A stretch of DNA of 64,000 nt. It comes from Bryobacteraceae bacterium. GTDB lineage: Bacteria > Acidobacteriota > Terriglobia > Bryobacterales > Bryobacteraceae. The DNA is taken from assembly GCA_025055455.1 (NCBI GenBank), contig JANWXD010000003.1:62001-126000 (forward strand), read 5' to 3'. The notes beneath the pieces were generated by a model. The model searched no databases. It was not told the DNA's origin and saw only the letters and a list, made by a program, of their open reading frames with translations. This document shows, in pieces, positions 52,738 through 57,787 of the stretch (the first letter of the stretch is position 1; each line of letters opens with the position of its first letter). A program made the position numbers and the translations under genes.

Positions 52738-52743
52738 ATTATA
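52738..52743 (-). promoter_or_regulatory. -10 element (TATAAT) of the sigma-54 activator gene
   Basis: A perfect TATAAT on the minus strand ends ten bases before ATG 52727, leaving a leader of about four bases. This is a near-leaderless arrangement without a Shine-Dalgarno. Confidence 0.5.
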
Positions 52744-53407
52744 GGCCATCCGCCCCGATCTCATCGAGGCGAACCACGAAGGCCTCTCCGAAGGCGACGC
52801 GGAGACGATCGGCCAGCACTCGGGCCGAGTCCAGGCTCGGCTCGCGGCCCACGATGACGCGCCACACGGGCGGATCGCCGTCGCGGAACACCAGGCGGCT
52901 CTCTCCAAAGCGCCGGGCGCGGTCGCGCGCGCGCTCGGCGTTAGCCCGGTCGCGGAAGGCGCCGACCTGCACCCCGAAGGGACCCCTCTCGGGAGGTGCG
53001 GCCGGCGCGATGACTTCCAGACGCACGCGCGCCGTGCCGGGACCGATCATCGCCAGCCGGCGCGCCGCCGCGCGGGACAGATCCACGATCCGCCCTTCCA
53101 CGAACGGACCGCGATCGTTGATGCGCACCACGACGGCGCGCCGGTTGTCGAGGTTGCGCACGTGCACCCACGTGCCGAAGGGAAGGGTGCGGTGCGCAGC
53201 GGTCAGCTGCTCCATGTCGTAGATCTCGCCGCTGGCGGTGCGCCGGCCGTGATAGGGCCGCCCGTACCAGCTCGCGATCCCGGTCTCGGTCCAGCCGGGA
53301 GCGGGCGCCGCCGGCACGGGCGGCCTCTTTTTCCTCGCGCATGCGGCCAGCAGCGCAGCGAGGGCGGCTCCTAGGCTGCGGCGCGTGATGCGGGCGCTCG
53401 GCTCCAT
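52739..53407 (-). CDS. rlpA: RlpA-family septal lytic transglycosylase lipoprotein
   Basis: 222 residues. The signal peptide ends in LAAC (Cys23) so it is a lipoprotein; TRRSLGAA just before is twin-arginine-like. The double-psi beta-barrel (about 40-130) has GIASWYGRPYHGRRTASGE and RNLDNRRAVVVRINDRGPF with the catalytic-site residues. A C-terminal SPOR domain (about 150-222, PFGVQVGAFRDRANAERARDRA) should bind denuded glycan at the division septum. TCTAAT ends six bases before the ATG. Confidence 0.9.
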   Translation of the reverse strand: MEPSARITRRSLGAALAALLAACARKKRPPVPAAPAPGWTETGIASWYGRPYHGRRTASGEIYDMEQLTAAHRTLPFGTWVHVRNLDNRRAVVVRINDRGPFVEGRIVDLSRAAARRLAMIGPGTARVRLEVIAPAAPPERGPFGVQVGAFRDRANAERARDRARRFGESRLVFRDGDPPVWRVIVGREPSLDSARVLADRLRVAFGEAFVVRLDEIGADGL

Positions 53408-53501
53408 GGTCCTATTAGAACAATTCGGCGGTTTCGCGTTTTTCCTCCGGGCGCGGGACGGCGTTGGCTCGCGGTTTCCGGCGCTCGCATGCATTTTTCT
53501 C

Positions 53502-53530
53502 TTGACTTTCAGACGATTTGACTTTATATA
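53502..53530 (+). promoter_or_regulatory. Near-consensus sigma-70 promoter of the Lys-rich peptide unit
   Basis: TTGACT (53502-53507), 17 bases, then TATATA (53525-53530): the strongest -35/-10 pair in the window and strikingly AT-rich against the surroundings. A second TTGACTTT starts at 53518, 16 bp after the first, forming a direct repeat. Predicted transcript start is about 53537. Confidence 0.75.
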
Positions 53531-53541
53531 TGAATCACGCT

Positions 53542-53576
53542 GCGATCTTTTCCGAGATCGCGCGACATTCGAATGT
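53542..53576 (+). promoter_or_regulatory. Structured 5' leader: hairpin and 12 bp palindrome
   Basis: GCGATCT (53542-53548) pairs with AGATCGC (53555-53561) around a six-base loop. Four bases later comes the perfect palindrome ACATTCGAATGT (53565-53576). Both lie in the 57 nt leader before the peptide ATG and leave the ribosome binding site GAGGGAGA free. They may stabilise the RNA or bind a regulator. Confidence 0.55.
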
Positions 53577-53593
53577 TGAGGGAGAATCAAGCG

Positions 53594-53659
53594 ATGAAGA
53601 ACGCAACCAAGAAGAAAGCTGCTCCGAAGAAGAAGGCCGCTCCGAAGAAGAAGAAGTAG
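53594..53659 (+). CDS. Tiny lysine-rich (KKxAAP repeat) peptide
   Basis: 21 residues. It starts MKNATKKKAAP, repeats KKKAAP once more and ends in four lysines; 11 of the 21 residues are Lys and the rest mostly Ala and Pro. This is the pattern of histone H1-like and AlgP-type tails, so DNA or RNA binding is a fair guess. GAGGGAGA eight bases before the ATG is a good ribosome binding site. The unit has its own promoter and terminator. Its function is unknown, and it could also be an sRNA with a coding part. Confidence 0.7.
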   Translation: MKNATKKKAAPKKKAAPKKKK

Positions 53660-53701
53660 CGGTCCGGTCCCCTCCCGGGGACAGCAGCCAAGATCAGTGG
53701 A

Positions 53702-53727
53702 GGCCCCGAGTCATCGGGGCCTTTTTT
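53702..53727 (+). terminator. Intrinsic terminator of the Lys-rich peptide unit
   Basis: GGCCCCGA (53702-53709) pairs perfectly with TCGGGGCC (53714-53721) around a GTCA loop, followed by six T. This is a textbook rho-independent terminator on the plus strand. The convergent midA gene ends at 53736; on the minus strand the hairpin lacks a following T-run. Confidence 0.93.
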
Positions 53728-53735
53728 ATTGGATT

Positions 53736-54700
53736 TTATTGGACGCCGCGTTGAAGCAGCAGTGTCCGATGGCTTTCCCCCAGGCCGAACAGCAGCGTCT
53801 TGAGTTGGAGGCGGCGCCGCAAGCTCTCGGCGGGCGTGGGCGCCTCGAGCACCGCGGCGAACTCATCCCGGCGTCCTACGTCGAGCAGCGTCTGGGCGAG
53901 GGATTCGAACGCCACACGCTCGAAACCGCCCCGGGCGGCGCGATCCTCGAGCGCGGTGAAGCAAACGTGGGCAGTGATGTCGCGCTCGCCGGGCTCGGCC
54001 AGCACGTCCGGCAGGGCGCAGTGCCGGCGGTAGCTCATGAGTGTCCCCTCCGGGAAGCGTGTCAGTTCGCGCGCGGTGTAGCCGTAGTCCAGCACGAACA
54101 AGAAGCCGCGCTCGAGCCGGCGGGCGATCTCATCGATCCACCGGAGGGCCTCGAGCGGGATCTCGATGCGCATGCCCTCGGCCGCGGCGCAGGCGTGGCG
54201 GCGCGCATACTCGGCCGCTTCCCCGCCGAGCGGGGGGCCTTCGAGCCACACAAAGTTCCCGTCGCGGAAGTCCACGCGCAGCTCCCGGAACGCGCCGTCG
54301 CGGAAGACGGCCACGTCCACTGGCAGCGCGTCGAAGAATTCATTGGCGAAGACGACGCCGCAAAACCGCTCCGGCCAGCCGCCGCCGCACTCGACGGGTA
54401 CATAGCGAAAAGCGGAGAACGCTTCCGCCATCTCGCCGCGCCCGGCGCCGAGCTCCACCACCACGAAGTCGCGCGGGCGCCCCAAATCCTCCCAGAGCGA
54501 GCCAACGCGGGCGGCGATGAGGGCGCCGAAGACGGGCTGAAGCTGTTCCGCCGTGAAGTAGTCGCCGCGTGTGCCGAAGGGGTCGCGTCCCCGGCGGTAG
54601 TAGCCGTGCTCAGGGTGGTAGAGCGCGACCTCCATGAAACGCCGGAAAGGGATCGGACCCGTGCGAGCGATTTCGTCGGCGAGCAGAAGGCCGGCGGGCG

Positions 54701-54704
<4 letters not shown>
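53736..54704 (-). CDS. MidA/NDUFAF7-like SAM-dependent methyltransferase
   Basis: 322 residues. RFMEVALYHPEHGYYRRGRDPFGTRGDYFTAEQLQPVFG and VVVELGAGRGEMAEAFSAF (SAM motif I) identify the MidA family; FANEFFDALPVDVAVF and FLFVLDYGYTARELTRFPEG follow. The human homologue dimethylates an arginine of complex I subunit NDUFS2; bacterial targets are unknown. Its start overlaps the stop of the CoA-binding-domain gene (ATGA), making it the last gene of a three-gene unit with metY. Confidence 0.88.

Positions 54705-57787
<3,083 letters not shown>

Follow-up and report, generated by a model that had tools for sequence, protein, structure and literature searches.

The locus under study lies on the forward strand of a 64,000-nucleotide stretch of a Bryobacteraceae genome (hereafter the window), between two genes encoded on the reverse strand. 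The divergent neighbour (52739-53408, 53408 being the chosen start) encodes an RlpA-like protein with the Pfam domains DPBB_1 and SPOR, and the convergent neighbour (53736-54875, true start uncertain) encodes a SAM-dependent methyltransferase (Pfam Methyltransf_28). Direct reading of the sequence between them reveals a near-consensus promoter (53502-53530), composed of a TTGACT box (53502-53507) and a TATATA box (53525-53530) separated by 17 nt, and a T-rich box, TGCATTTTTCTC (53490-53501), abuts its -35 element. The only reason why this promoter is absent from the list returned by our consensus scan is that the scan demands a T as the last base of the -10 box. From the position of the -10 box, transcription is predicted to start around A53537 and, with the terminator described below, to yield an RNA of about 191 nt (53537-53727; fold z of -2.76).

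The predicted RNA opens with a leader hairpin (53542-53561), in which the 7-bp stem GCGATCT/AGATCGC pairs 53542-53548 with 53555-53561, followed by a 12-bp palindrome, ACATTCGAATGT (53565-53576), and by a Shine-Dalgarno sequence with its conserved spacer, GGGAGAATCA (53580-53589), GGGAG occupying 53580-53584. The open reading frame (53594-53659) starts with the ATG at 53594, ends with the TAG at 53657-53659, and encodes the 21-residue peptide MKNATKKKAAPKKKAAPKKKK. The upstream in-frame ATG at 53573 (MLRENQ...) was considered as a start and rejected, as it falls in another frame in many relatives and lacks its own Shine-Dalgarno sequence. The 3' untranslated part comprises a second hairpin, GTCCCC-TCCC-GGGGAC (53667-53682), and a perfect intrinsic terminator (53702-53727), GGCCCCGA-GTCA-TCGGGGCC-TTTTTT. 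The GC content of the promoter and leader is 42%, versus 65% for the whole window. A preliminary description of this DNA had proposed a complete, free-standing and AT-rich transcription unit of about 190 nt in a GC-rich region; the layout agrees with this proposal, and the unit is conserved. It is probably strongly expressed, judging from its sequence signals.

Conservation and genomic context of the unit

When 60 related genomes were searched at the DNA level, most genera of the family proved to carry the unit, with identities of 69-83%. In an alignment of 30 units, the T-tract and the -35 box are near-invariant, GGAGAA of the ribosome binding site is invariant, and TATATATGAATCAC, the hairpin, GATGTT-AGGGAGAATCAATCG and the start ATGAAGAACGCAACC are conserved. 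A covariance model of the promoter, leader and start (R1) matched 183 of 200 Bryobacteraceae genomes, including 134 of the 140 good-quality ones, and 73 of 76 genera. The unit is nearly always single copy by this model, with two copies in only two among the genomes listed, and no R1 match was obtained in any sampled genome of one genus of the family, g8 (G007, G102, G137, G159, G173). Named contigs in which the promoter pattern occurs bear the labels Bryobacterales, Bryobacteraceae, Solibacter or other Acidobacteria; the exception, labelled Acidimicrobiia, corresponds to a genome of the family (G030).

At least nine further families of the Terriglobia (f2, f4, f6, f8, f93, f95, f98, f99 and f100) share this layout, with peptides of 11-32 residues. 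The shortest peptide, MAAKKKAKKKR, has 11 residues and was found in the set formed by f4, f6, f93, f95, f98, f99 and f100. In f8, which is probably the Acidobacteriaceae, R1 matches are weak but complete, and the units encode peptides of 13-24 residues such as MATKKKAKKKKKH. A second model (R2), for which only f8 sequences were used, matched 105 of 299 genomes of the class and recovered the window's own unit at an E-value of 0.005. Outside the class, a third model (R3) retrieved similar free-standing lysine-rich ORFs from a few genomes (L331, L332 and L333); they encode 29-92 residues, have a similar promoter, and are of uncertain homology to the unit. No DNA similar to the unit was found in phage and plasmid collections, and hence there is no sign of a mobile cassette. 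On this comparative evidence, the mini-gene is real, and throughout a large class of soil-dwelling Acidobacteriota it recurs as a unit equipped with a dedicated promoter, RNA hairpins and terminator.

In relatives, the promoter reads TTGAC[TA] in all cases, and the 17-nt spacer is kept in 124 of 125. This genome contains a single copy of the element TTTTYTCTTGAC at its distance from TATA, and most relatives having the pattern show it only at the unit. A search for a regulon sharing this promoter found none.

Many units are flanked, as in the window, by divergent RlpA-like and convergent SAM-methyltransferase genes. This arrangement bears on whether the peptide could be a lysine-codon leader peptide that controls a downstream gene by transcription attenuation, a mechanism that would likewise involve a short lysine-rich ORF followed by a terminator. 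In 90 of 116 units, that of the window among them, the gene that follows downstream is convergent; attenuation is therefore ruled out for the window, and no conserved antiterminator was seen. A local role in cis is conceivable in f8, where at several loci the terminator precedes a co-directional gene whose product begins MTRRRWIAD. As an explanation of the unit, we regard attenuation as very improbable.

Two loci of sister family f3 link lysine-rich stretches with HU: one (L185/L188, G053) encodes a 108-residue KKAAP-repeat protein directly upstream of an HU gene, and in the other (L190, G044) a further HU bears an N-terminal KKAAP tail.

Conserved RNA structure and units that lost the ORF

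The 5' hairpin covaries among 30 sequences, with 16 cells changed on both sides versus 5.3 in shuffles, and far lower values in slid controls. A stem comparable to the second hairpin follows the stop codon in 74% of units versus 19% of shuffles, and is built from 56 different stem sequences. The intrinsic terminator was detected in 118 of 118 testable units, as opposed to 13 of 870 random control windows (1.5%). The near-consensus promoter, the 7-bp leader hairpin, the good ribosome binding site and the perfect terminator of the preliminary description are thus all present and retained in relatives, and so are the start and the lysine-rich pattern. By contrast, the palindrome that it listed as part of the structured leader is found in its own genome only among 125 units; it looks like a local accident, and a functional role for it is not supported.

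Rfam gave no match in the window at the gathering cut-off, and no family fitted the unit at a relaxed one. The candidate Acido-1 RNA was rejected: it scored 24.4 for a cut-off of 50, lies antisense over the terminator, and has stronger matches elsewhere. In one f8 genome, an Acido-Lenti-1 RNA (RF01687) above cut-off lies near the unit (L038, 1158-1204).

The promoter, 5' hairpin and terminator persist in genomes of the genus g96, in two g94 genomes and in one g91 genome, where the start codon of the lysine ORF has been lost (L288-L300 and L342-L344 for g96, in f8, at least 13 genomes examined; L271 and L272 for g94; L274 for g91). Nearly all these units retain CAGGGAGARTAG; GGGAGA is kept in g96 and in the g91 genome, and g94 has GGGAGC. 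Such units may represent either an RNA with its own function or slow decay.

Since the RNA persists in some relatives that have lost the ORF, a purely protein-coding reading falls short, and an RNA function has to be considered. The dual-function RNA suggested in the preliminary description would be a short regulator, acting by base-pairing or protein binding through the single-stranded GGGAGAAUAG and the hairpins, with the peptide as second product. The conserved leader, hairpins and terminator are consistent with such a role, and the short RNA, small ORF and strong terminator are shared with the dual-function sRNAs SgrS and VcdRP. However, coding selection on the ORF of the unit is strong in most lineages, base-pairing targets are only hypothetical for this candidate, no Rfam family reaches cut-off in the window, and the ORF-less units may simply be decaying. 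We therefore give a regulatory RNA only a limited chance of being the explanation.

Genomes of f8 (L345, L347-L353) also encode DUF6496 proteins (PF20106) with an H1-like MATKKASKK tail. The ORF-less genomes mostly carry such a longer protein elsewhere, and a peptide-keeping g91 genome has one too. The start of these proteins resembles that of the f8 peptides, but they carry a C-terminal domain, and their promoter and leader are unrelated to those of the unit.

The peptide is under coding selection and constant in composition

The substitutions counted across 106 distinct coding sequences fall 1392 times at the first codon position, 654 times at the second and 3865 times at the third. In frame, 2902 single-base codon changes were synonymous and 497 non-synonymous (85% synonymous); the corresponding shares are 16% and 2% in the two remaining frames. 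These counts come from sequence pairs, which are not independent. The size of the synonymous bias leaves little doubt that the ORF is coding, in line with the Lys/Ala/Pro peptide initially predicted.

The 119 distinct peptides are composed of 48% K, 31% A, 6% T, 5% P and 0.4% R, arginine and aromatic residues being near absent. They contain no Asp or Glu, this set having been collected with a filter excluding both residues, and neither do the 106 coding sequences, which were collected without it. Lengths range from 11 to 87 residues, with a median of 22. Genomes other than that of the window encode long repeat forms of 46, 52, 61, 76 (L056) and 87 residues (L117, G004; AAPAKK repeat), which lie behind the same promoter and leader and begin with the same start, indicating that the number of repeats varies rather than the sequence. 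The likeness to histone H1-type tails noted in the preliminary description, which lies in composition, is strengthened by these repeat forms. Neither short nor long peptides gave anything above cut-off in Pfam and NCBIfam; HC2 (PF07382) reached E-values of 4.5-4.9 for two long proteins, far below cut-off in significance, and did not match the 21-mer. A literature search on small lysine-rich or H1-like proteins of Acidobacteria returned nothing specific. Taken together, the comparisons support a conserved unit, translated under selection, whose product keeps its composition as its length varies.

Discussion

We consider it probable, with some reserve, that the unit is a conserved chromosomal gene for a very small H1-like polycation, whose binding to polyanions we infer from analogy and composition. 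The near-consensus promoter would drive a short RNA, probably protected by its 5' and terminator hairpins, and translation would produce a peptide of Lys/Ala(/Pro/Thr) composition, unfolded and 11-87 residues long, which lacks acidic residues and has a charge of about +8 to +37. Since charge and composition are constant and length is free, a disordered, electrostatic binder of polyanions seems a better description than a folded or pocket-bound peptide. Its ligand would most likely be nucleoid DNA, or else RNA or polyphosphate, and the peptide might contribute to nucleoid compaction. The nucleoid is suggested by the f3 loci, where KKAAP stretches lie beside HU or form part of it. At 11-20 residues, binding to nucleic acids would be weak and of little specificity.

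A tiny, very basic, single-copy and near-universal product could also be a peptide that associates with the ribosome or binds rRNA, similar in size to bTHX and other very small ribosomal proteins. A fixed ribosomal pocket, however, would hardly accommodate a repeat-driven range of 11-87 residues, and the near absence of arginine and aromatic residues would fit it poorly as well. We find this reading improbable.

HU proteins with lysine-rich tails occur in Actinobacteria. Such proteins have KKAAP stretches in common with the peptide, which, in contrast, is free-standing and away from HU in the window and in its family. By composition, the nearest studied proteins are Hc2 and AlgP. Chlamydial Hc2 (HctB) and BpH1-type proteins are likewise encoded by conserved genes and made of Lys/Ala-rich repeats in variable number; Hc2 varies in length through these repeats and binds both DNA and RNA (PMC2848022). 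These H1-like proteins have 165-237 residues, against 11-87 for the peptides described here, and the Hc2 pentamers contain arginine, which makes up only 0.4% of our peptides; the latter also lack a Pfam HC2 match. The Pseudomonas AlgP has a disordered KPAA-type tail of H1-like composition, as in the peptide, and this tail has been linked to DNA and polyphosphate granules (PMC9239181). AlgP, however, possesses a 124-residue N-terminal helical domain, whereas the ORF of the unit consists only of the lysine-rich tail.

A more ambitious version holds that one strong unit yields both a structured, functional RNA and a free-standing H1 tail of as few as 11 residues, forming a class-wide unannotated family in which the number of lysine repeats tunes the condensation of the nucleoid or of RNA; we see this version as doubtful.

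The unit is a candidate source of a strong native promoter and terminator for the Acidobacteriota, for which genetic tools are poor. If the polycation reading is correct, we know of no smaller H1-like polycations than these peptides, and near-universal, single-copy genes of 11-30 codons would exist across a dominant class of soil bacteria, where they would fall under the usual length limits of gene calling. The series of 11-87 residues behind one promoter would then offer a natural test of how charge and repeat number relate to the condensation of nucleic acids or polyphosphate.
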